A stretch of DNA of 64,000 nucleotides from Flavobacterium ovatum (GTDB lineage Bacteria; Bacteroidota; Bacteroidia; Flavobacteriales; Flavobacteriaceae), in the NCBI RefSeq assembly GCF_040703125.1, contig NZ_CP160035.1:3003001-3067000 (forward strand), read 5' to 3'. Below the pieces are notes generated by a model. That model was given only the letters and a program-made list of their open reading frames with translations. It did not search any database and was not told where the DNA came from. Below, in pieces: positions 4,732 to 47,790 of the stretch. Position 1 is the stretch's first letter. Every line of letters begins with the position of its first letter. The position numbers and the translations under genes are program-made.

Positions 4732-6813
4732 ATGAAATACCTTTTTTTATTTATTTCCTATATAACTATTGCCCAGCAAATTAAATCGGTGGATTTTACA
4801 GAATCTTGTGGTAAAATAGCAATGAACACCAAAGAAAAATCTATTTCTGGAAAGGTGATTTATGAGTTTAAAGTGTTGAAAGCTATTGACACCATTAGTA
4901 TTGATGCACAAAATATGATTTTTGAAAATGTACTGGTTAACGGAAAATCATTAGTTTATAGAAATACAGACAAACAATTGCAGCTAATCGCTCCGTTTAA
5001 AAAAGGAAAGTATACGTTACAATTGGATTACAAAGCAATTCCAAAACAAGCTTTGTATTTTGTAGGTAATTTTGAAGCTTCGGGAGACTCTAAAATTCCG
5101 TCACAAATTTGGACACAAGGACAAGGTCGATATACGAGTAATTGGTATCCGAGTTTTGATAATGTGAATGAAAAGGTAATTTTTAATCTTGAAATTACTT
5201 TTGACAAAGGATATCAAGTAGCCGCCAATGGTGTTTTGAAATCTAAAAAAGAGCAAAACGAAAAAACAGTTTGGCAATACCATATGAATAAACCTATGAG
5301 TTCATATTTACTAATGTTAGGAATTGGACAATATGATATTTACAAAGAAAAATCCAAAAGTGGAATTCCGTTAGAAATGTATTTAGAAAAAGTTGATGCT
5401 TCCAAGTTTGAAACTACCTACAGAGGTTCTAAAGAAATTTTTGATTTTGTAGAAAAGAAAATAGGAGTAAAGTACCCTTGGAAAGTCTATCGCCAAATTC
5501 CAGTTCATGACTTTTTATATGCGGGAATGGAAAATACTTCTTCGACCATTTTTGCAAGTCGGTATGTGGTGGATGCAATCGGTCTTGAAGATAGAAGTTA
5601 CACAAATGTCAATGCACACGAATTAGCGCACCAATGGTTTGGAGACTTAATTACGGCAGAAAGCGGAAAACACCATTGGTTACAAGAAGGCTTTGCAACA
5701 TATTATGCATTACTGACTGAGAAAGAATTAAAAGGCGAAGATTATTTTTATGCTAAAATGTATGAATCAGCGCAGCAGTTAAAATATGCTTCCCGAACGG
5801 ATACTATTCCTGTTTTGAATGCCAAAGCAAGCTCATTGAGTTTTTATCAAAAAGGGGCTTGGGCTTTGTTTATTTTACAAGATGCTATTGGCGAACAAGC
5901 TTTTGCAAAAGCGGTACAATCGTACTTAAAAAAGCACCAATACGAGTCGGTTACAACGGCTGATTTTTTTGCTGAAATTAAAAAAGTATCTGATTATGAC
6001 TTAGTTAATTTTAGTAAAGTATGGCTAGAAGACTATCGTTTTAATACACAAGAAGCCAATGAGTTATTGTTTAAAAATAAAATGATAAAAATGCTATTTG
6101 ATGTGGAATCAAAAAAGAAAGTCACATTGACTGAAAAAGAAACTTTTTTTAAAAACATCTTACTATCGAATGCCAATATATTGATCAAAAAAGCTATTCT
6201 TAATCAATTGAAAACTGAAAAATGGGAAGACAAAAAGAGATTGTTTCAAGAAGCAATAAATACAAAAAATATTGAATTAAGACAGCAAATTGCTATTTTA
6301 ACTCCAAAGATTCCAGAAGATTTTCGATTAGATTATGAAACCTTATTAAATGATAAATCGTATCAAACTCAAGAAATAACTTTATACTATTTGTGGAAAA
6401 ATTTTCCAGAACATCGTTTTCAATATCTAGATCAGTCCAAAGAATGGATGGGTTTCAACGATTATAATTTGCGAACATTATGGCTATCTTTAGCGTTGTC
6501 AACGCCCAATTATATTACTGTCAAACAACCATTAATTGACGAATTGATTCAATATTCTAGTCCACAATATGAAGCGATTACAAGAGAAAATGCACTAGAG
6601 AAATTAATTGGATTTAAGATTATCAATGACAAAGTATTGATTAATTTGGTAAAAGCAACCACGCACCATATGTGGCAGTTTTCTAAATTTGGACGCGATA
6701 CCATACGAAAAATGCTCAAAGAAGAAGATATGAAATCCTCCTTTGAGCACATTTTACTTCAATTGAACGAAACGGAAAAATTTCAGCTGAATCGTTTATT
6801 GAAAGAGTTATAG
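4732..6813 (+). CDS. M1 family zinc aminopeptidase, secreted
   Basis: This peptidase removes N-terminal residues from peptides, probably in the periplasm. With the ATG at 4732 the protein has 693 residues and starts with a signal peptide (MKYLFLFISYITIAQQ). The substrate motif AGMEN is the family's GxMEN. The zinc site HELAH is at about 296-300, followed 18 residues later by the third ligand in WLQEGFATY (about E319). The last 250 residues are a helical C-terminal region. A longer frame from TTG at 4705 exists but overlaps the -7 box. The gene is monocistronic and convergent with the next. Confidence 0.92.
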   Translation: MKYLFLFISYITIAQQIKSVDFTESCGKIAMNTKEKSISGKVIYEFKVLKAIDTISIDAQNMIFENVLVNGKSLVYRNTDKQLQLIAPFKKGKYTLQLDYKAIPKQALYFVGNFEASGDSKIPSQIWTQGQGRYTSNWYPSFDNVNEKVIFNLEITFDKGYQVAANGVLKSKKEQNEKTVWQYHMNKPMSSYLLMLGIGQYDIYKEKSKSGIPLEMYLEKVDASKFETTYRGSKEIFDFVEKKIGVKYPWKVYRQIPVHDFLYAGMENTSSTIFASRYVVDAIGLEDRSYTNVNAHELAHQWFGDLITAESGKHHWLQEGFATYYALLTEKELKGEDYFYAKMYESAQQLKYASRTDTIPVLNAKASSLSFYQKGAWALFILQDAIGEQAFAKAVQSYLKKHQYESVTTADFFAEIKKVSDYDLVNFSKVWLEDYRFNTQEANELLFKNKMIKMLFDVESKKKVTLTEKETFFKNILLSNANILIKKAILNQLKTEKWEDKKRLFQEAINTKNIELRQQIAILTPKIPEDFRLDYETLLNDKSYQTQEITLYYLWKNFPEHRFQYLDQSKEWMGFNDYNLRTLWLSLALSTPNYITVKQPLIDELIQYSSPQYEAITRENALEKLIGFKIINDKVLINLVKATTHHMWQFSKFGRDTIRKMLKEEDMKSSFEHILLQLNETEKFQLNRLLKEL

Positions 6814-37596: not shown

Positions 37597-38027
37597 TTAG
37601 GAAGTTTTTGTTTTCATAATTACGATGGTTTGAAGCGTAAATCCAACTCAAAGTCATTGCAAGCTAAGCTTGGTAATCACACATTGCGCTTAATTTTTTT
37701 AACCATATAAGCCATATAAGTTTTTCCTTTTTGGTTTTCTAAAATTTTTAGACCTAAGTAAAACTAAGTGCATATAAGTTATTTTATAAAAGCATAAAAA
37801 ATACACAAACTTGACATGAGATAGGAATCTCAGACAATCAATTAAAAAGAAGCAAAACTATGTAGAGTATTGCGAGCGAAGCGTGGCAATCACTTTGCAA
37901 AGAGCACAGAAAGTTGAACAAAACGAAAAATTGAAGTACGACTTAACAAACGTGATTACTTTCCCTAAAAACAGGAACTGGCTGTTCATCCTAATGACGA
38001 AAAGCAAAGGAATTTTAATGTGTAAAG

Positions 38028-39218
38028 TTATTTTATCCCCAACTCCCCATAAAAAGCATCAATTTCTTTAGTACTCCAACCCATAGCAACAATTGTAGCT
38101 TTTGCATTTCTGGCATTTTCAATGGCTGCCTTTTTATCACCAATTTTATGGTGTAATCGTGCCAATAGTAAAATAGTTTCAGCAGAATTGTTCAATTCTA
38201 CCGCTCTTTTCGCCCATGAAATGGCAGTTTTCAAGCTTTCTGTTTCATTTATATAGCTGTTGTAATTTTTGGTGATTCCGTTAAGGATAGAATAATCGCT
38301 CCAAGCGAATTTTGAAACCGATTCTAGAGTCGTTTCTTGGTATTTTTTCCAATTCTTGATTCCCTCATACATTTGTAAATCATTTCTAAAAACCAAGGAA
38401 TCTACTTTGGATAATTTAATATTTTTTGCAATTATTCGAGTTTTGGAATAGTTGATCGAATCCAAACTATTCATGCTCGTAGCAAACGTTCTCTTGACCA
38501 CATCTACAATCTTGGTTTCGACTCTTTTGGGAGAAGAAACTTTGGCAAAATCGGCTTGATGGTTTACCATCAAATCAAAGGATTTCGAATTCAAATCGTT
38601 TACACCATAAGCTACAATTTTCCAATTCATAGGCGTAAAAAGTTGTTCTTTGGACTGCGTTGCCAAAAATTGGCCCGTCACTTCATCGCTTTTCTCGGCA
38701 TCAATGCTTTTCTTTAAAGTATATAAATAGGCAAAACATTTATCAGGATTGCTTCTGTCTTGATTGAATTGCTTTTCCAAAAAAGGCAGCTGATTGTATG
38801 GATTTAACGCTTTTTGACCTTCTATTATAAAAGCTTCAGAAGTAAATTCACCGCCCGAACTGTAAATATGTGTTTCCTTTTCGTCCAGAAATACATAAGT
38901 GGGATAGGATTTTATGTTGAATCTTTTCATGAATTCTTTTCCTTGTAAGGTTTCAGAGTCCATCATTACATTGACAAAATTGTCGTTGAAAAATGTAATA
39001 ACCGCAGGATCTGTCAAAACGGTACTTTTCATTTTATTGCAATGCACACACCAACTGGCATAAACCATTACAAAAATGTTTTTTTTCGTCGCTTTGGACT
39101 CCACCACAGCTGATTGTATATCGTTTTGTATAAAATCGATGGTTGTCTTTTGTGCGTTTACCGTTGCCGTAAAAAGCAAAATAATAAAGATAAAAGTATG
39201 TTTTATTGTTGTTTTCAT
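38028..39218 (-). CDS. Secreted thioredoxin-fold protein with C-terminal TPR-like region
   Basis: A 396-residue protein. The signal peptide is MKTTIKHTFIFIILLF, with cleavage near NAQ. A thioredoxin-like domain follows (about 30-130) with the active-site motif ASWCVHCNKMKS (CxxC) and the cis-proline loop RFNIKSYPTYVF. A long helical region ends in a TPR-like segment (SAETILLLARLHHKIGDKKA). It probably reduces or isomerises disulfides in the periplasm. I use the ATG at 39218; a TTG two codons upstream is also in frame. It is the first gene inside the repeat-bracketed accessory block. Confidence 0.85.
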   Translation of the reverse strand: MKTTIKHTFIFIILLFTATVNAQKTTIDFIQNDIQSAVVESKATKKNIFVMVYASWCVHCNKMKSTVLTDPAVITFFNDNFVNVMMDSETLQGKEFMKRFNIKSYPTYVFLDEKETHIYSSGGEFTSEAFIIEGQKALNPYNQLPFLEKQFNQDRSNPDKCFAYLYTLKKSIDAEKSDEVTGQFLATQSKEQLFTPMNWKIVAYGVNDLNSKSFDLMVNHQADFAKVSSPKRVETKIVDVVKRTFATSMNSLDSINYSKTRIIAKNIKLSKVDSLVFRNDLQMYEGIKNWKKYQETTLESVSKFAWSDYSILNGITKNYNSYINETESLKTAISWAKRAVELNNSAETILLLARLHHKIGDKKAAIENARNAKATIVAMGWSTKEIDAFYGELGIK

Positions 39219-39370
39219 GTACAATTATAGGATGCTAATACTATTTGTAATAAACGGCAATTTAAGATTTTTGACTGTACTTTGAAATGATAATTAAGTA
39301 AAGAGTTTTTTTTATATGACCGATACGCAACTAAGTCCCGCTCTAATTTTATATAGCAATTTACTTCGCT

Positions 39371-39970
39371 CTAATATTGATTATATTTAGTAAAATTATT
39401 CAAATTCAGGACATCAACTACTGGTAAATCAGCTTTATTAATTTTTAGTAATCCATTATCAGAAACATAATTACTGGCGCTAGAATAAAGATAGTGTGAT
39501 GCTTTTTCTACAATTCCTGCACGAACAGGGTTTAGGTGAATATAATCTAATTTCGACCACATGAATTTGTCACTATAAATTTCTTCAGGATGATTGCCAT
39601 ATTGCCAAAACTGATAATTTTTGTTTCTACTGTGAGTTTCTGTTGAATTTTTAAATCGTTCTAACATCCATTCACGTCGACTCTCTGGATCTGTTTTTAT
39701 TTTTTCAATAATTTTTGTTGCAGTAAATTTTTTAAAATCACGCAACAAATCAGACAACTTTCCATCGCTAGATTGTATAACTATATGAATATGATTACTC
39801 ATAATAACATAACCGTACAAAATCATACTTTTATGCTTTATACAGTGCTCAATACTTTCTATAACTATGTCCCTATAGGTTTTTCTAGTAAACACGTCTA
39901 CCCAATCAACAACAGTAGCAGTAATAAAATGTGGTAACGATTGGTCTCTAATTTTATATCCTTCTTGCAT
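39371..39970 (-). CDS. REP-associated tyrosine transposase (RAYT, IS200-like Y1 HUH enzyme)
   Basis: A 199-residue single-strand DNA transposase relative. The HUH metal motif is SNHIHIVI (His60, His62). The catalytic Tyr is Tyr143 in LDYIHLNPVRAG, aligned by motif with Tyr115 of the E. coli REP transposase. FWQYGNHPEEIY and LYSSASNY are further RAYT hallmarks. All key residues are present, so the enzyme appears intact. RAYTs bind and cleave REP hairpins. Here a tandem array of paired inverted hairpins begins about 50 bp upstream of its start codon, the expected substrate. The gene is in the same direction as apeA beyond the array. Confidence 0.93.
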   Translation of the reverse strand: MQEGYKIRDQSLPHFITATVVDWVDVFTRKTYRDIVIESIEHCIKHKSMILYGYVIMSNHIHIVIQSSDGKLSDLLRDFKKFTATKIIEKIKTDPESRREWMLERFKNSTETHSRNKNYQFWQYGNHPEEIYSDKFMWSKLDYIHLNPVRAGIVEKASHYLYSSASNYVSDNGLLKINKADLPVVDVLNLNNFTKYNQY

Positions 39971-40019
39971 TTGTTTTTTTAATCTAATTTAAGAATTTAT
40001 TTAAATAAATGTACGTTTG

Positions 40020-43000
40020 TTTGAACATCATTACGAGTACGAAGTCTCCCGACTTCGTACACAATCCAACTGGCCGTTCCAATTTTTTAAACTTCTTGAA
40101 AATAATGTAAAAAAGCACGGTTATTTTACTAACTGTGCTAATTGAAATTTGCATACTGTTGCGGGTGCGAAGTCAGGAGACTTTGGACAGCATTCCATAA
40201 TTATATTTGGTTGATACAAGCATATTTGATTATTGTAACGTTTCAGGAAATAACATCATGAAAAAGTTCGTGAGGCTGAACGAATCCGTGTTGCTGTGCG
40301 AAGTCTCCCGATTTCGTATCCAATCCAATTGATCGTTCTTGTTTTTTAAGCTTCTTTAAACTAATGTAAAAAAGCACAGTTATTTTACTAATTGTGCTAA
40401 TTGAAATTTGCATACTGTTGCGGGTGCGAAGTCAGGAGACTTCGCACAGCATTCCATAATTATATTTTGTTGATACAAGCATACTTAGTTATTGTAACGT
40501 TTCGTAAAATAGCAAAATTAAAAAGTTCGTGAAGCTGATCGAATCCGTGTTGCTGTGCGAAGTCTCCCGACTTCGTACACAATCCAATTAACCGTTCTAA
40601 TTTTTTAAACTTCTAGATAACTAATGTAAAAAAGCACAGCTATTTTACTAATTGTGCTAATTGAAATTTGCATACTGTTGCGGGTGCGAAGTCAGGAGAC
40701 TTCGCACAGCATTCCATAATTATATTCTGTTGATACAAGCATACTTAGTTATTGTAACGTTTCGTAAAATAGCAAAATTAAAAAGTTCGTGAAGCTGATC
40801 GAATCCGTGTTGCTGTGCGAAGTCTCCCGACTTCGTACACAATCCAATTAACCGTTCTAATTTTTTAAACTTCTAGATAACTAATGTAAAAAAGCACGGT
40901 TATTTTACTAACTGTGCTAATTGAAATTTGCATACTGTTGCGGGTGCGAAGTCAGGAGACTTCGCACAGCGTTCCATAATAATATTTTGTTGATACTAGA
41001 ATATTTGATTATTGTAACGTTTCACAAAATAACAAAATTAAAAAGTTCGTGAGGCTGAACGAATTCGTGTTGCTGTGCGAAGTCTCCCGACTTCGTACCC
41101 AATCCAATTGACCGTTCCAATTTTTTGAGCTTCTAGAAACTAATGTAAAAAAGCACAGCTATTTTACTAACTGTGCTAATTGAAATTTGTATACTGTTGC
41201 GGGTACGAAGTCAGGAGACTTCGCACAGCATTCCATAATAATATTTTGAAGATACAAGGATATTTGATTATTGTAACATTTCCCAAAACAACATCATTAA
41301 AAAATTCGTGAGGCTGAGCGAATCCGTGTTGCTGTGCGAAGTCTCCCGACTTCGTACCCAATCCAATTGACCGTTCCAATTTTTAAACTTCTTGAAAATA
41401 ATGTAAAAAAGCACAGTTATTTTACTAACTGTACTAATTTAAATTTGAATGCTGTTGCGGGTGCGAAGTCAGGAGACTTCGCACGGCATTCCAGAATTAT
41501 ATTTTGTTGATACAAGCATACTTAGTTATTGTAACGTTTCGTAAAATAACAAAATTAAAAAGTTCGTGAAGCTGATCGAATCCGTGTTGCTGTGCGAAGT
41601 CTCCCGACTTCGTACACAATCCAATTGACCTTTCCAATTATTTAAGCTTCTTGAAACTAATGTAAAAAAGCACAGATTTTACTAACTGTGCTTATTGGAA
41701 TTTGAATACTGTTGCGGGTGCGAGTCAGGAGACTTCGCACAGCATTCCATAATTATATTTTGTTAATACATGAATATTTGATTATTGTAACGTTTCCCAA
41801 AATAACATCATGAAAAAGTTCGTGAAGCTGAACGAATCCGTCTTGCTGTGCGAAGTCTCCCGACTTCGTACCCAATCCAATTGACCGTTCCAATTTTTTG
41901 AGCTTCTAGAAACTAATGTAAAAAGCACAGCTATTTTACGAATTGTGCTAATTGAAATTGCATACTGTTGCGGGTACGAAGTCAGGAGACTTCGCACAGC
42001 ATTCCATAATAATATTTTGAAGATACAAGGATATTTAGTTATTGTATCATTTCCCAAAACAACATCATTAAAAAGTTCGTGAGGCTGAAAAAAATCGTGT
42101 TGCTGTGCGAAGTCTCCCGACTTCGTACCCAATCCAATTGACCGTTCCAATTTTTTAAGTTTATTGAAACTAATATAACAAAGCACAGCTATTATACTAA
42201 CTGTGCTTATTGAAATTTGCATACTGTTGCGGGTACGAAGTCAGGAGACTTCGCACAGCTTTCCATAATACTATTTTGTTGATACCAGAATATTTAGTTA
42301 TTGTAACGTTTCGCAAAATAACAAAATTAAAAAGTTCGCGAAGCTGAACGAATCCGTGTTGCTGTGCGAAGTCTCCCGACATCGTACCCAATCCAATTGA
42401 CCATTCCTGTTTTTTTTAACTTCTTGAAACTATTGTAAAAAAGCACAGCTATTTTACTAACTGTGCTAATTGAAATATGTATACTGTTGCGGGTGCGAAG
42501 TCAGGAGACTTCGCACCCGCATTCCATAATAATATTTTGAGGATACTAGAATATTTAGTTATTGAAAAGTTTCCTAAAACAACATCATTAAAAAGTTCGT
42601 GAGGCTGAACGAATCCGTGTCGCTGTGCGAAGTCTCCCGACTTCGTACCCAATCCAATTGACCGTTCCAATTTTTAAGCTTCTAGAAACTAATGTAAAAA
42701 GCACAGCTATTTTACTAACTGTGCTAATTGAAATTTGAATACTGTTGCGGGTACGAAGTTAGGAGACTTCGCACAGCATTCCAGAATTATATTTTGTTGA
42801 TACTAGTATATTTTTTTATTGTAACATTTCGCAAAATAACATCATTAAAAAGTTCGTGAGGCTAATCGAATCCGTGTTGCTGTGCGAAGTCTCCCGACTT
42901 CGTACCCAATCCAATTGACCGTTCCAATTCTTTAAGCTTCTTGAAACTAATGTAAAAAAGCACAGCTATTTTACTAATTGTGCTAATTGAAATTTGCATA

Positions 43001-43846
43001 CTGTTGCGGGTGCGAAGTCAGGAGACTTCGCACAGCATTCCATAATAATATTTTGTTGATACAAGCATACTTAGTTATTGTAACGTTTCGTAAAATAACA
43101 AAATTAAAAAGTTCGTGAAGCTGATCGAATCCGTGTTGCTGTGCGAAGTCTCCCGACTTCGTACACAATCCAATTAACCGTTCTAATTTTTTAAACTTCT
43201 AGATAACTAATGTAAAAAAGCACGGTTATTTTACTAACTGTGCTAATTGAAATTTGAATACCGTTGCGGGTGCGAAGTCAGGAAACTTCGCACAGCATTC
43301 CATAATAATTTTTGGTTGATACAAGGAATTTTGATTATTGTAACATTTCGCAAAATAACATCATTAGAAAGTTCGTGAGGCTAAAAAAAATCGTGTTGCT
43401 GTGCGAAGTCTCCCGACTTCGTACACAATCCAATTAACCGTTCTAATTTTTTAAACTTCTAGATAACTAATGTAAAAAAGCACGGTTATTTTACTAACTG
43501 TGCTAATTGAAATTTGCATACTGTTGCGGGTGCGAAGTCAGGAGACTTCGCACAGCATTCCATAATTATATTTTGTTGATACTAGTATATTTTTTTATTG
43601 TAACATTTCGCAAAATAACATCATTAAAAAGTTCGTGAGGCTAATCGAATCCGTGTTGCTGTGCGAAGTCTCCCGACTTCGTACCCAATCCAATTGACTG
43701 TTCCATTTTTTTAAGCTTCTAGAAATTAATTTAAAAAGCACAGCTATTTTACTAACTATGATAAAAGAAATTTGAATACTGTTGCGGGTGCGAAGTCAGG
43801 AGACTTCGCACAGCATTCCATAATTATATTTTGTTGATACAAGGAA
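40020..43846. repeat. BIME-like tandem array: about 15 units of about 259 bp, each with two inverted REP hairpins
   Basis: Each unit holds REP hairpin A (GTGCGAAGTC, AGGA, GACTTCGCAC), a spacer of about 110 bp, REP hairpin B in the opposite sense (GTGCGAAGTC, TCCC, GACTTCGTAC), a spacer of about 65 bp, and a third stem-loop (AGCACAGTTA ... TAACTGTGCT). I counted 15 A and 15 B hairpins; the first B is at 40037-40060 and the last A at 43788-43811. B to B spacing is 259-260 bp at the start of the array. Both REPs read 5' GGGTRCGAAGTC ... ACTTCGCACAGCA when set in the same sense. Short open frames inside are chance products. The array fills the gap from the RAYT start to 22 bp short of apeA. Confidence 0.93.
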
Positions 43847-43867
43847 CACCTTGTAGAGCTGGGCAAC

Positions 43868-45283
43868 CTATTCGACTTTTAAATGATTGAAGTTATTCTT
43901 GACTTTCTCCAGTAAATGATCAACAGTTTCCTTTGGAAATCCAATTTCATGTAGCAGTCCGATTACCAAAACCAGTTTCATTCGCTCAGACAATAACATT
44001 AAATCTCGTTCAGAAATTAGGTGTTTTTCTAATCCAGTTGAATAGTGAGTATAATAGTTTCTTAAATCTTTAATTTGTTTTACGAAAGCATTCTGATCAG
44101 GAATTAACTCTTTGAGTGTTTCGTTTGAATATTTGTCTATCAACTCGTTTAACCGTTGATGCAAGTTAAGATGATTACCAAAATTAAACTGCTCATTTAA
44201 CCAAGGATGATATTTCGCTGGAGTTGAATTTAAAATTTCGGTCTTCATTTCTGTATAGTCTTTTTTTGGAATTTTTGTATGGTTATAAAGTCTTGCATGC
44301 AACGTTTCTAGAGCTTGTGCTAGATTTAAGAATGTATTTTCTGAAAATTTGGATTCATTATAAAATTGCTCAAAAAGTAAACTGAATGCTGGCTTCAATT
44401 TTTCATATTTTTCGAACCAATTTTTTATGGCTATAGGAAAAAGATTTTCAATTTTTTTGTAATTAAATAGCATCTCCCAAGGATGTAGTTCATTTCGAGT
44501 TTTCCTTTTGGATGTAGTTTGGAAAAATTCTATCGGTTTCCGGTACTTTCCAGATTGTCCGTAATCATTTTTTATATTACTGTTATATAAAGTTATTGAT
44601 GTTGGAAATACACTTCTGTAAATTCCCATAATCAAAAAATTTTGGAAACGCGCTAATAATTTTCTAATATCTTCTAATGGTATGTTTTCGCTTGAGCCGA
44701 TTTCAATTTCAACATGTTGAGTTATAGATTCCAATTTCAGCGAACTGTACGTAGGCGAAGTACTAGAAAACACAAACTTTCCTGTGAACTTATCGTGCAA
44801 TTCAAATGCAATATTTTCTGGTAGCTTATAGTCTACACGTATTGATTTTTCACTTAAGTTGTCAATGTTTTCGGAATGCTTAAATCCAGTAATATTTAAC
44901 CATTCGTCAAAATTTTGCATTGAACTTTTTATCTCATTGAATTGTAAAGATTCTTCAGTTTCAAAATGATGTCCTTTTAAAATGAAGTTTACGATGTACT
45001 TCTCGAAAGCTGGACCCGATTCGTTGCCTTTCCGATAAGTTTGTCCACGTCTTGCAACGTTGAAACAATTATAGAGAGTTATATATTCGCTGTTAATAGA
45101 CAAGCCCAGAATGATAAATGCTTCGGATTGATGTTTTCTATGAAGTATTCCGAAGTCGTCAAAACTTCCAATTAATTCAAGTGTTGCACCTTCAACAGGA
45201 TCAAAACGCAAAGTGCCGGGAACTCGTTTTTCTTTATTTTCAGGCAAAAACCATAGGCCTTGTATCTCAAACTTTATTATCAT
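43868..45283 (-). CDS. apeA: ApeA-like anti-phage HEPN protein
   Basis: A 471-residue protein from the ATG at 45283; an upstream in-frame TTG at 45298 would add five residues. The N-terminal beta-rich part (GLWFLPENKEKRVPGTLRF, then ATLELIGSFDDF) fits the ApeA N-terminal domain. The C-terminal helical part is HEPN-like and carries the RNase motif R-x4-H in KDLRNYYTHYSTG (about Arg408, His413). The ApeA family was shown to defend E. coli against phage, presumably by RNA cleavage. The gene stands alone on the minus strand, its stop 22 bp from the end of the REP array. Family assignment is from memory of the domain pattern; activity is inferred. Confidence 0.8.
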   Translation of the reverse strand: MIIKFEIQGLWFLPENKEKRVPGTLRFDPVEGATLELIGSFDDFGILHRKHQSEAFIILGLSINSEYITLYNCFNVARRGQTYRKGNESGPAFEKYIVNFILKGHHFETEESLQFNEIKSSMQNFDEWLNITGFKHSENIDNLSEKSIRVDYKLPENIAFELHDKFTGKFVFSSTSPTYSSLKLESITQHVEIEIGSSENIPLEDIRKLLARFQNFLIMGIYRSVFPTSITLYNSNIKNDYGQSGKYRKPIEFFQTTSKRKTRNELHPWEMLFNYKKIENLFPIAIKNWFEKYEKLKPAFSLLFEQFYNESKFSENTFLNLAQALETLHARLYNHTKIPKKDYTEMKTEILNSTPAKYHPWLNEQFNFGNHLNLHQRLNELIDKYSNETLKELIPDQNAFVKQIKDLRNYYTHYSTGLEKHLISERDLMLLSERMKLVLVIGLLHEIGFPKETVDHLLEKVKNNFNHLKVE

Positions 45284-45808
45284 AGACAAATGTTTCAACT
45301 ACTTGCGCACAAATACCATACACTCTTAAAATAAAATAGTTTTATTCCTAATTGGCATCTTATACGTATGTTTTTGTTATTATTAATGTTATCATTTTTA
45401 CCCAAATATATAAATTAATCTTACAAAACGTAAATAAAAAAACAATACGAAAATTTTAGCCCTGATCGCCGCGGCATCCTCTTGTGTAACGATAGTGGAA
45501 CAAGAGATACAGCATAGAGCAGGACGACTCGTAATTTGAAAACCCAAATCCTTCTGCTCCTAAAAAAGAAGAGAAAGCGATTCTGTTGGGAATCATTTCT
45601 TTGGGATATTGCGCATTTTGAGCTGTTCTAGGTTATTCTTTAATTAAAAATGATTTTGGTGTTGTTTTTTTTGCGAAAATTGACTAAATTAGTGCATTAA
45701 TCAGTTGTTTTTTAACATAATACTAATACCCATTATCCTATAGCCTACTAAAATTGCAACTGTTTACCCGAAGATCATAAGTACGACCACTAAAACCTAA
45801 GTTACTAT
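45284..45808. other. Gene-free stretch with the second 107-bp element
   Basis: This 525-bp gap between the divergent apeA and nqrA genes contains AT-rich leader sequence, the structured element at 45456-45562 and an AT-rich nqrA leader. No open frame or clear promoter box was found. Confidence 0.55.
45456..45562 (+). repeat. 107-bp structured repeat element, copy 2 (inverted to 37490-37596)
   Basis: TTAGCCCTGATCGCCGCGGC, ATCCT, then the inner stem CTCTTGT/ACAAGAG with a 14-nt loop, then ATACAGCATAGAGCAGGA and a tail ending CTTCTGCTCCTA. The outer sequence matches copy 1 on the other strand; the inner stem is of unrelated sequence but still pairs. Confidence 0.75.
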
Positions 45809-47164
45809 ATGAGTGCATCTATAAAGATTAAAAAGGGATTGAATCTCAAATTGATTGGTGAAGCTGAAAAGTCCCTTTTGGAACTTCCTGTTGCCGAAGT
45901 GTTTGCTCTAAAACCAAAGGACTTTGTGGGACTTACGCCCAAAATGTTGGTAAAAGTAGGTGCGAATGTGGTGGCGGGTAGTCCGTTGTTTTATGATAAA
46001 AACAATGAGGCGATTCGGTTTTGTGCTCCTGTGAGTGGCGAGGTGATCGAAATTATAAGGGGTGCCAAAAGGGTCATCCTCGAGATAAAAATCCTTGCTG
46101 ACAGAGCCGTGAAATACGGCAGTTTTACCAAAGCGAATCCCAACGATCTTTCTCCAAAAGAAATCACTGACCAATTGTTGCAATCGGGTGTTTGGCCGTT
46201 TATCCGCCAACGTCCTTATGGCACGATTGCGAATCCTAGCGATAGCCCAAAAGCGATTTTTATTTCGGCTTTTGATACCAACCCGTTGGCGCCAGATAAT
46301 GATTTTGTGCTATCGGGAAAAGAATCTCATTTTCAAACGGGAATTGATGCTTTGCAAAAACTCAGTACGGGAAAAATCCATTTGAATGTAAAAGCCAACA
46401 GCTCCCCTGCTCCTGCATTTAGAGGTGCGCAAAAAGTGCAAATCAATACGATTTCGGGACCGCATCCTGCGGGAAATGTAGGTGTGCAAATTCACCACAT
46501 TGACCCAATTAACAAAGGCGAAATCGTTTGGTACTTGCATCCACAAGATGTGGTTATCATCGGAAAACTTTTTACAGAAGGAATTTATGATCCTTTGCGA
46601 ATTATTGCCGTGACGGGTTCGCAGGTTAGTTCTCCTAAATATTATAAAACAATTGTGGGTTCGTCCCTCAAAAATATACTTACAGACGCTGGACTTAAAA
46701 AAGGCGATAACCGCATTATAAGTGGTTCGATTTTGTCGGGAACGCAAGTAGCTGCTGATGGTTATTTGGGTTTTTACGATTCGCAAGTGACGGTGATTCC
46801 AGAAGGAAATGAATATGAATTTATGGGTTGGCTGGCACCTGGATTGGATAAATTTAGCGTTTCGCGTACTTTTTTCTCTTGGTTGACACCTAACAAAAAA
46901 CACGATTTGAACACCAATTTACACGGTGAGGAACGTCCGTTTGTGATGACAGGACAATATGAAAAAGTGTTTCCGATGGATATTTATCCGGTGCAATTAC
47001 TGAAATCTATCTTGATTGAAGACATCGACATGATGGAGAAATTAGGAATCTATGAGGTTGCTGAGGAGGATTTTGCGCTTTGCGAGTTGGTGTGTACATC
47101 GAAGATTAAATCGCAGGAGATCATCAGGCATGGATTGGATATGGTGCGAAAGGAGTTTAGTTGA
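45809..47164 (+). CDS. nqrA: Na+-translocating NADH:quinone reductase subunit A
   Basis: NqrA is the peripheral cytoplasmic subunit of the respiratory sodium pump. The 451-residue protein opens MSASIKIKKGLNLKLIGEAE, with KVGANVVAGSPLFYDK and FCAPVSGEVIEI of its barrel-sandwich part, and later TVVGSSL-like IVGSSLKNILTDAGLKKGDN and the RPFVMTGQYEKVFPMD ending region. Length is normal. nqrB follows only after 1,165 bp of repeats, unlike the usual tight nqr operon. Confidence 0.96.
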   Translation: MSASIKIKKGLNLKLIGEAEKSLLELPVAEVFALKPKDFVGLTPKMLVKVGANVVAGSPLFYDKNNEAIRFCAPVSGEVIEIIRGAKRVILEIKILADRAVKYGSFTKANPNDLSPKEITDQLLQSGVWPFIRQRPYGTIANPSDSPKAIFISAFDTNPLAPDNDFVLSGKESHFQTGIDALQKLSTGKIHLNVKANSSPAPAFRGAQKVQINTISGPHPAGNVGVQIHHIDPINKGEIVWYLHPQDVVIIGKLFTEGIYDPLRIIAVTGSQVSSPKYYKTIVGSSLKNILTDAGLKKGDNRIISGSILSGTQVAADGYLGFYDSQVTVIPEGNEYEFMGWLAPGLDKFSVSRTFFSWLTPNKKHDLNTNLHGEERPFVMTGQYEKVFPMDIYPVQLLKSILIEDIDMMEKLGIYEVAEEDFALCELVCTSKIKSQEIIRHGLDMVRKEFS

Positions 47165-47174
47165 TTTTTTTTTT

Positions 47175-47790
47175 ACCATATAAGTCATATAAGTTTTTTT
47201 TGTTTGTGACAAGTTTAGATAGAAGATCATAAAAGATAGAATTATACTGTTGCTGTTTTTTAAACCATATAAGACATATAAGAATTATAAGATTTTGGTC
47301 TGTAAAAAGTTTAAGGCAAGCCTTAATTGAAGAACATATAAGCTGGAGTGATACTGTTGCTGTTTTTTAAACCATATAAGACATATAAGAATTATAAATT
47401 TTTATCTATAATAAGTTTAAGGCAAGCCTTAATTGAAGAACATATAAGCTGGAGTGATACTGTTGCTGTTTTTTTAAACCATATAAGAGATATAAGAATT
47501 ATAAGATTTTGGTCTGTAAAAAGTTTAAGGCAAGCCTTAATTGAAGAACATATAAGCTGGAGTGATACTGTTGCTGTTTTTTAAACCATATAAGACATAT
47601 AAGAATTATAAATTTTTATCTATAATAAGTTTAAGGCAAGCCTTAATTGATGAACATATAAGCTGGAGTGTTACTGTTGCTGTTTTTTTAAACCATATAA
47701 GACATATAAGAAATATAAAATTTTTGTCTATCAAAAGTTTAAAGCAAGCCTTAATTGAAGATCATTTAAGTCGATTTGATACAATATTAA
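47175..47790. repeat. 107-bp tandem repeat between nqrA and nqrB
   Basis: Units start with ACCATATAAGACATATAAGA at 47264, 47371, 47478, 47585 and 47692, exactly 107 bp apart. A diverged partial unit begins at 47175. Each holds the palindrome TTAAGGCAAGCCTTAA and the phrase GGAGTGATACTGTTGCTG. Units 1 and 3 share one inner variant (GATTTTGGTCTGTAAAAAG), and units 2 and 4 another (ATTTTTATCTATAATAAG), so the array grew by copying a 214-bp pair. The open frames through it are repeats read by chance. Confidence 0.9.

Follow-up and report, generated by a model that had tools for sequence, protein, structure and literature searches.

An intact RAYT gene beside a tandem array of 15 inverted REP pairs in Flavobacterium ovatum

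The RAYT gene and the adjoining array

The analysed window, a stretch of 64,000 nt from Flavobacterium ovatum, contains a RAYT gene next to a head-to-tail array of REP pairs (Table 1). The RAYT scores 96.9 bits against NCBIfam model NF047646 (REP-associated tyrosine transposase, cut-off 80) and 23.9 against Pfam Y1_Tnp (cut-off 23), while its 19 bits against NF033573 (IS200/IS605 transposase family) stay below the cut-off of 55. Residues N59, H60, H62, Q120, Y143, S163 and S164 are invariant in all 26 aligned RAYT sequences, a thinned set from an initial list of 41, with L103, L055 and L105 (the latter two with in-frame stops) among those left out. Based on H60, H62, Y143 and the NF047646 score, the gene can be considered an intact RAYT, as the first-pass annotation had stated. 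A profile built from this alignment matches the E. coli TnpAREP structure 4er8 (E 1.2e-5); the single RAYT sequence gave no match among solved structures. No PADLOC model matches the protein, and PHROGs returned one weak family match of unknown function. The subfamily is patchy in the genus, occurring in 74 of 398 genomes, own genome counted.

Table 1. Features of the RAYT locus (positions in the window).
Feature	Position	Strand	Basis
Possible outer right end remnant, AGAGCGGG	39337..39344	-	Sequence compared with relatives; uncertain
RAYT gene, HUH-Y1 transposase, 199 aa, intact	39371..39970	-	ORF, family profiles and alignment
Tandem array, 15 REP pairs, head to tail, unit 256-261 bp	40037..43843	-	TRF and unit alignment
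Hybrid REP between array and RAYT, double-foot type	40037..40060	.	By eye, compared with relatives' ends
REP A example from unit u04, right-end type in RAYT sense	41070..41100	-	Unit alignment
Third stem-loop example, followed by T-run on RAYT strand (terminator-like)	41152..41177	-	Terminator scan
REP B example, left-end type in RAYT sense	41198..41230	-	Unit analysis
Probable outer left end, 48 nt outside last REP	43816..43863	-	Likeness to relatives' outer left ends

TRF reports the array at 40040-43843 with a period of 260, 14.7 copies and 89% matches. Read in the sense of the RAYT, a unit consists of the left REP, the third hairpin, the right REP and a spacer of about 100 bp. The REPs alternate in orientation throughout the 15 pairs, counting the hybrid REP beside the RAYT and one REP left unclassed by the script. 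By-eye comparison with the relatives' ends shows that the array side of this hybrid is the right-end half and its gene side the left-end half. The third stem-loop is readable in nearly all units; that of u06 is shortened and that of u14 is broken. The earlier description of a tandem array with two opposite-sense REPs and a third stem-loop per unit is hereby confirmed. Folded as single-stranded DNA, a single unit reaches -49.2 kcal/mol (z = -8.0), which none of 200 shuffles equalled, and the inverted REPs of the units are able to fold together, as in a BIME or REPIN pair. Terminator-like signals on the RAYT strand were flagged in 5 copies, versus 3.0 (sd 1.9) in shuffles, in a scan that is weak by itself; the third hairpin would probably stop read-through transcription into the transposase gene.

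The array was also considered as a coding region. This was rejected, as neither Pfam nor NCBIfam gave a family match (E 0.01) for its 146-aa ORF (41782-42222). In Rfam, the sole match at the gathering threshold within 38000-46000 is Flavo-1 RNA, outside the array.

REP feet and dispersed REPs

Among the array REPs fitting the strict pattern, the foot before RCGAAGTC is GGGT in 18 and GTGT in 6 of 24; in 16 relative loci, 43 of 58 REPs have GGGT and 15 do not. GGGT had been put forward as this enzyme's equivalent of the GTAG tetranucleotide. It is indeed the commonest foot, but its last two bases are able to pair in the stem, and therefore the unpaired foot would be NNGG.

Outside the array, the REP core was found at about 15 sites of the genome (10 by pattern and 5 more by BLAST), of which two may be chance, with 1 + 2 matches for the reversed pattern as a control. 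These copies agree with the earlier reading, which depended on the core recurring elsewhere. Thirteen of the 15 sites lie outside ORFs of at least 90 aa. Two are whole REP pairs, each about 68% like the array unit; dispersed pairs with the third hairpin occur in L125 and L129. The dispersed REP at 3255296 abuts another, broken RAYT (44% identity), which is bracketed by the same REP type. The dispersed REPs may be cognate to the window RAYT. Since most of the spacer (the part of the unit beyond position 194) has no further match in the genome and the dispersed pairs are about 68% like the unit, the array grew locally. Among the matches listed in order of E-value, no other of the 398 genus genomes has a full-length unit, and the best match outside the own genome covers 62 bases.

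RAYT elements in relatives

Of the 73 RAYT loci fetched, 17 were mapped, hand-picked for GAAGTC-type REPs (L072-L074, L094 and L096, which also had hits, are among those omitted) and including the near-identical contigs L063 and L064 of one genome. In 13 of these 17, the RAYT is flanked by two inverted REPs, the left one 88-105 nt before the gene and the right one 37-40 nt after it. The array shares these REP ends. Directly upstream of the RAYT, one REP pair is present in L053, L062 and L102, two in L052 and L057, and three in L059, as opposed to 15 in the window and none in the other 11 mapped relatives. An inverted-repeat bracket beats every control in 49 of the 56 loci tested and fails in 7.

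Near-identical complete copies of the element, with sharp ends, are present in L055 (97.1%), L056 (96.9% and 93.6%) and L053 (89.5%). Inside these ends, seven of the eight end stretches are 85-99% identical and one is 77% identical, while the 100 bp outside them show an identity of 41-52% versus a null median of 52%. Both RAYT genes of L055 are interrupted, and gene-less copies of the element were found in L054 and L062. The L056 element (F. algicola) has two gene copies free of interruption. Of the 121 matches to the end motif CC[CA]GCTCT kept out of 483, 95 have a C at -3 and 98 have one at -2; some of the 121 are REP tips or right ends in opposite-strand reading. Eleven of these matches (9.1%), L069 360 being a weak one, have their start within a REP loop by pattern. 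The control rates, in which the real nested cases are included, are 0.29% for random positions, 0.86% for positions following CC[CA] and 1.9% for those of the latter that lie near RAYTs. The pattern overlooked at least four further nested ends, situated in the loop or foot of a REP (L055 5778, L056 minus 785, L057 5669 and L131 2349).

The relatives' whole REP-RAYT-REP unit with its extra end sequence looks like an insertion sequence: its copies, 89-97% identical, stand in unrelated flanks and end sharply at a CC run, some of these ends being nested in REP loops. This is apparently the new part. What looks like a discrete multi-copy unit with precise ends is seen in L053, L055 and L056, and not in the window.

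Ends of the window element and search for an empty site

The array probably extends outward to an element end at 43863. In RAYT sense, this left end begins with CCCAGCTCTACAAGGTGTTC (43848-43863), like the outer left ends of the relatives' RAYT elements. The end motif matches once in the window versus 0-2 times in shuffles, non-significant alone; the end was called because the motif sits at the array edge and not by its significance. REPs are found on the upstream side only, the right-end REP (+37 to +50 in relatives) being missing or decayed. The 8-mer AGAGCGGG is a possible remnant of the outer right end and may also be chance or other remains. Due to the decay of the right end, the composite has a boundary on just one side. 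As the right-end REP is unrecognisable, the entire locus has probably lost its mobility; the array could still be acted upon in trans. The first-pass annotation, made from the sequence alone, had missed the outer ends and, with them, the subterminal position of the hairpins in an IS-like element.

The nearest thioredoxin-like gene (69-73% identity at the DNA level) is present in three genomes of the genus, and no RAYT lies beside it there. However, the neighbourhood is non-syntenic, so the missing RAYT there does not establish an insertion at the window. The 20 kb taken from these genomes hold no other match to window positions 28001-64000. The gene neighbouring the RAYT locus, which we take to be NqrA-like, had no match in these three genomes, an absence that is uninformative by the search tool's own statement. 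For the L062 mini-element, the joined flanks of a putative empty site matched one-sidedly only, in 3 of 398 genomes, and no empty site was thus found.

Unit variation and origin of the array

Leaving out the partial unit u14, the mean divergence between units is 6% in the REPs and 13.6% in the spacer. The units are mosaic, fall into subfamilies and have discordant nearest neighbours in their two halves. Mosaic breakpoints are not confined to REPs, with u13 breaking in REP B and u02 between columns 69 and 89, outside the REP (by eye). Similarity does not decay with distance along the array (Mantel r -0.15 and -0.05, again without u14), and unit order was therefore rejected as a record of copying. 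Mosaic units without such decay indicate that recombination has shaped the array. Of the first-pass annotation's suggestion that the array may record repeated local copying, local growth stands (unique spacer) but a simple record of successive copying does not (mosaics, Mantel test).

The locus is probably a Bacteroidota-type RAYT element (TnpAY1 subclass 2.6-like, i.e. Bertels group 5) in which a mini derivative of the element itself was multiplied head to tail, on the stretch from the left end to the transposase gene. The array unit is best taken for this derivative, which is gene-less and MITE/REPIN-like. On single-stranded DNA, the RAYT would recognise a REP hairpin with a GG foot and would cleave at CC, founding the unit and the dispersed copies, whereas array growth and reshuffling would mainly be due to recombination or slippage between repeats.

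In an ordinary tandem expansion, two chance copies would have seeded the array, followed by RecA-dependent unequal exchange or slippage, with the adjoining RAYT irrelevant to its growth. This has close to an even chance of being correct, given the mosaic units and the discordant neighbours of their halves. What speaks against it is that the share of bases in tandem arrays is 4.2% up to 1 kb from RAYTs versus 0.39% further off, a tenfold enrichment, although the hairpins themselves may promote slippage. By locus, arrays occur at 21 of 73 versus 5 of 73 control blocks 3-4 kb away, some short loci having no block.

The same concentration at RAYTs, together with the head-to-tail order, fits the RAYT-driven rolling-circle model for BIMEs (Nunvar et al. 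2010; described in PMC2817692), in which one unit is nicked, circularised, copied as a concatemer and reinserted. Nevertheless, one recent burst would leave uniform units, while those observed differ by 6% (REPs) to 14% (spacer) and form mosaic subfamilies, making this origin rather unlikely; an old burst followed by recombination is compatible with the divergence. It is improbable that a host function (insulation of transcription, or the binding of gyrase or nucleoid proteins) keeps the array beside a domesticated RAYT, since the lower divergence of the REPs than of the spacer and the terminator-like hairpins in RAYT direction are opposed by the patchy subfamily and by the lack of a full-length unit in other genus genomes among the matches listed.

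Comparison with known systems

As in the BIME-2 or tandem REPIN clusters of E. coli yafM, Stenotrophomonas Smal4 and P. fluorescens SBW25 (PMC2817692, PMC3116915), inverted REP pairs and their flanks lie head to tail beside a cognate RAYT. The window differs in its 15 pairs over 3.8 kb, the lack of a GTAG foot, the third hairpin and the position of the REPs inside extra end sequence. According to PMC2817692, a tandem BIME adjoins one third of RAYTs, and Xanthomonas clusters are termed large there. In PMC3116915, the largest ordered SBW25 cluster is given as four REPINs (over 700 bp) and the largest REP clusters as 12 REPs. The array had been regarded as unusual; because tandem BIMEs beside RAYTs are already known, it is an outsized case of a known kind, and only its size stands out.

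The protein resembles TnpAY1 subclass 2.6 (RAYT group 5) of Bacteroidetes as described in PMC6006769 (NH[LIV]H, WQ, SS and a HUH-Y distance near 82 aa), having NHIH, WQ, SS and a distance of 81-83, with YIHLNP one position off the motif YIH[QN]NP. Atypical hairpins without GT[AG]G and copies elsewhere in the genome are also shared, whereas the element ends, the mini-elements and the presence of several whole copies apparently go beyond that description of the subclass. TnpAY1 class 3 is described in the same source as resembling both IS and REPtrons, as possible intermediates, but with the motif Y----Q, the foot CnGA and an occurrence in other phyla.

A Y1 HUH transposase, subterminal hairpins and precise ends are also typical of IS200/IS605 elements (IS608, ISDra2), but here the hairpins are inverted and near-identical, and the window RAYT is below the NCBIfam IS200 cut-off. 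TIRtrons likewise have a RAYT-like gene (TIRYT) enclosed by inverted ends, which make up repeat families as well; in place of their GGGGWSAS (PMC3733652), the ends here hold REP-type hairpins and the motif CC[CA]GCTCT.

RAYTs are regarded as single-copy, vertically inherited, domesticated transposases (PMC8049555), and PMC2817692 reports no sign of IS-like mobility. The copies in relatives suggest that a RAYT type thought tamed may still move like an insertion sequence. It is conceivable, if still doubtful, that flavobacterial RAYTs are undomesticated, REP-RAYT-REP with CC[CA]GCTCT-type ends being an autonomous single-strand IS between IS200/IS605 and domesticated REPtrons. The GG foot would then guide cleavage to CC, also where this lies in a loop or foot of the element's own REPs, so that copies would nest and stack in tandem at the parent, with the 15-unit array as the extreme product. 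If the RAYT of this lineage is still mobile as a unit that has mini-elements and definable ends, the step from IS to REP/BIME would be directly testable, and the natural ends would allow a test of whether the foot guides cleavage (GG to the site CC). With a GTGG foot, the Marinomonas enzyme cleaved at CC and also at CA, and retargeting of the E. coli and Stenotrophomonas enzymes failed (PMC8266576). At L060 and L061, more than 1 kb of upstream sequence is held in common, indicating vertical inheritance there.

Array and transposase gene

The RAYT (REP-associated tyrosine transposase) gene is intact and, in a sequence alignment, retains the conserved catalytic residues; the window containing it is placed within a single contig of 4,249,485 bases. 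Its closest named relatives are mostly from Flavobacterium species, the best having 79-86% identity, which points to a Flavobacterium-like host. A single-sequence query found no solved structure matching this RAYT, and a profile built from 26 relatives identified E. coli TnpAREP (4er8, E 1.2e-5).

Features of the RAYT locus and its surroundings (window positions)
Feature	Position	Strand	Description
RAYT gene	39371-39970	-	199 aa
Tandem array	40040-43843		upstream of RAYT; 14.7 units, unit length 256-261
Probable outer left end of element	43848-43863		beyond outermost REP pair
ApeA/HEPN protein gene	43868-45298	-	Pfam ApeA_NTD1, HEPN_Apea; PADLOC PDC-S58 and Cas13-ApeA models
Flavo-1 RNA	45454-45530		Rfam RF01705, 48.2 bits; upstream of an ORF
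Second tandem array	47222-47770		107-bp period, 5.1 copies

Read in the RAYT sense, each unit consists of a left REP (TGCTGTGCGAAGTC, loop, GACTTCGCACCC), a stretch of about 100 bp that contains a third stem-loop, a right REP (GGGTACGAAGTC, loop, GACTTCGCACAGCA) and a spacer of about 100 bp. Folding indicates that the two REPs of a unit are able to pair together (z -8.0). The third stem-loop is followed by a T-run, and from its shape we infer a terminator. This hairpin is shortened in unit u06, broken in u14 and also present in two dispersed copies, with a single compensatory change (C-G pair to T-A) in dispersed copy L129.

Pairwise comparison of 14 units gave mean differences of 6.3% for one REP and 5.7% for the other, 10.1% for the unit middle and 13.6% for the spacer. 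Units u03 and u13 have the same middle sequence, and u13 differs from u10 at one spacer site. Since the nearest-neighbour units are not the same for the two unit halves and similarity does not drop with distance along the array, recombination between repeats has played an important part in the array.

According to PMC2817692, tandem BIMEs adjoin one third of the RAYTs in that study. In SBW25, clusters are found beside all three RAYTs, the largest ordered cluster having four REPINs and the REP clusters reaching twelve REPs (PMC3116915). As such arrangements are already established, the array is of a known kind and stands out by its size: the first-pass annotation, which considered a head-to-tail array of this size beside its own transposase unusual, holds for the large size, but not for the tandem arrangement itself. 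Among the titles and abstract openings listed, no description of these elements was found.

The element in related genomes

In a sample of one genome per species, the RAYT subfamily (E 1e-70) is found in 74 of the 398 genus genomes when the own genome is counted, and 13 of the 74 have two subfamily matches, some perhaps fragments. In 13 of 17 hand-picked loci mapped in relatives, the gene is preceded by a left REP at a distance of 88-105 nt and followed by a right REP at 37-40 nt. Inverted similarity between the RAYT flanks is above every control at 49 of the 56 loci tested. Beyond the REPs, a conserved left end reads CC[CA]GCTCT.CGAAGTGTTC, with its inverse on the right in some species.

More than one element copy is present in three loci. 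In L053 (F. hibernum) the copies are 89.5% identical over 968 bp; in L055 (F. muglaense) they are 97.1% identical over 871 bp, and each gene is interrupted; L056 (F. algicola) has three copies, with 96.9% and 93.6% identity to the first, two of the three being uninterrupted 204-codon ORFs. Immediately inside the ends of the multi-copy elements, seven of eight stretches show 85-99% identity and the other one 77%; immediately outside it is 41-52%, the median for random 100-mers being 52%. Among the copies compared, there are 26 non-trivial pairs with at least 85% identity, and in 25 of them similarity reaches no further from the gene than 335 nt upstream and 233 nt downstream. In the remaining pair, L060 and L061, it extends more than 1 kb upstream, and their sharing therefore looks vertical. 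Judged from these alignments, the relatives' copies have the features expected of a discrete mobile element; a search of 398 genomes with the joined flanks of one mini-element revealed no empty site.

L054 and L062 each contain two further copies that lack the gene, measure about 200 bp and share the left end. Directly upstream of the RAYT, 11 of the 17 loci have no REP pair, three have one, two have two and one has three; in the window there are 15. The probable outer left end of the window element was assigned by its position at the edge of the array and by the matching sequence between motif and REP, the 16-base motif alone being nonsignificant (one match in the window at up to 3 mismatches, 0-2 in shuffles). 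The right end is decayed.

Tandem arrays with a period of at least 45 and a score of at least 150 cluster close to RAYTs: they cover 5,626 of the 134,883 bases lying within 1 kb versus 2,317 of 590,817 further out, and occur at 21 of 73 loci versus 5 of 73 in the comparison. By pattern, 11 of 121 element ends (9.1%) start inside the REP loop of another copy, compared to 0.29% for random positions, 0.86% after CC[CA] and 1.9% for such positions near RAYTs, a pattern that would be expected if the element targeted its own CC-rich loop. Upstream of the RAYT in L072 (a Lutibacter MAG), eleven REP-type hairpins spaced about 45-95 bp (5313-5987) apparently form an independent array with another unit.

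Dispersed REPs

In the whole genome, the 20-base REP pattern, at most 3 mismatches being allowed, gave 36 + 39 matches, and the reversed pattern 1 + 2. Outside the array, the pattern located ten REP sites and BLAST with a unit five more, so that the REP core recurs at 15 sites, in keeping with the first-pass annotation's reading. Thirteen of these are outside ORFs of at least 90 aa; sites 2803276 and 4108319 may be chance matches. A whole REP pair is found near 925470 and 2060255 (68.0% and 68.5% identity to a unit), and by eye 1278067 and 4104094 resemble decayed pairs. With 30 REPs, the array holds more than were found in the rest of the genome.

A unit match at E 1e-6 is present in at least 74 of the 398 genus genomes, own included. 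Among the matches listed, the best foreign one by E-value covers 62 bases around a REP, and the full unit was not found in any other sampled genome of the 398 searched. The unit beyond position 194, most of the spacer, has no match elsewhere in its own genome at E 0.001. Because of this private spacer and the absence of full units from the other sampled genomes, the array has grown locally.

The REP at 3255296 adjoins a different, broken RAYT (44% identical) bracketed by the same REP type; the dispersed REPs may therefore have depended on more than one RAYT. This broken gene (L131, G000:C1:3255469-3256023 of the own genome) has two stops, and stacked left ends accompany its bracketing REPs. 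A second RAYT type in this genome, with 48% identity to the query, is represented by the uninterrupted L136 (G000:C1:2308328-2308864) and the partial L137 (3338632-3338898); by eye, its bracketing palindromes differ, being of the GACTGCGTCGAGT type.

Proposed mechanism

As described in PMC8266576, TnpAREP of E. coli, Stenotrophomonas and Marinomonas cleaves single-stranded DNA beside REPs. The Marinomonas foot acts like an IS200/IS605 guide, a GTGG foot directing cleavage at CC, with CA also still cut; similar foot changes with the E. coli and Stenotrophomonas enzymes failed (PMC8266576). Here, the unpaired REP foot would be NNGG and the element begins at a CC run, in suggestive agreement with foot-guided cleavage at CC. 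By analogy with the Marinomonas GTGG foot, the GG would guide the predicted RAYT cleavage to CC. Array growth is a step separate from this cleavage, one in which recombination between repeats has had an important part. The RAYT may also drive array growth, following the rolling-circle model of PMC2817692. That the array is a tandemly amplified gene-less derivative of the RAYT's own element is considered fairly likely, a reading tempered by an outer-end motif that is nonsignificant alone and by dispersed REPs that are possibly not all this RAYT's.

Neighbouring features

The stop codon of the ApeA/HEPN gene, a candidate defence gene, lies about 4 bp from the outer end of the array. The ORF downstream of the Flavo-1 RNA is presumably NqrA-like. 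Fourteen further sites in the genome contain part of the 107-bp unit (24-49 bp).
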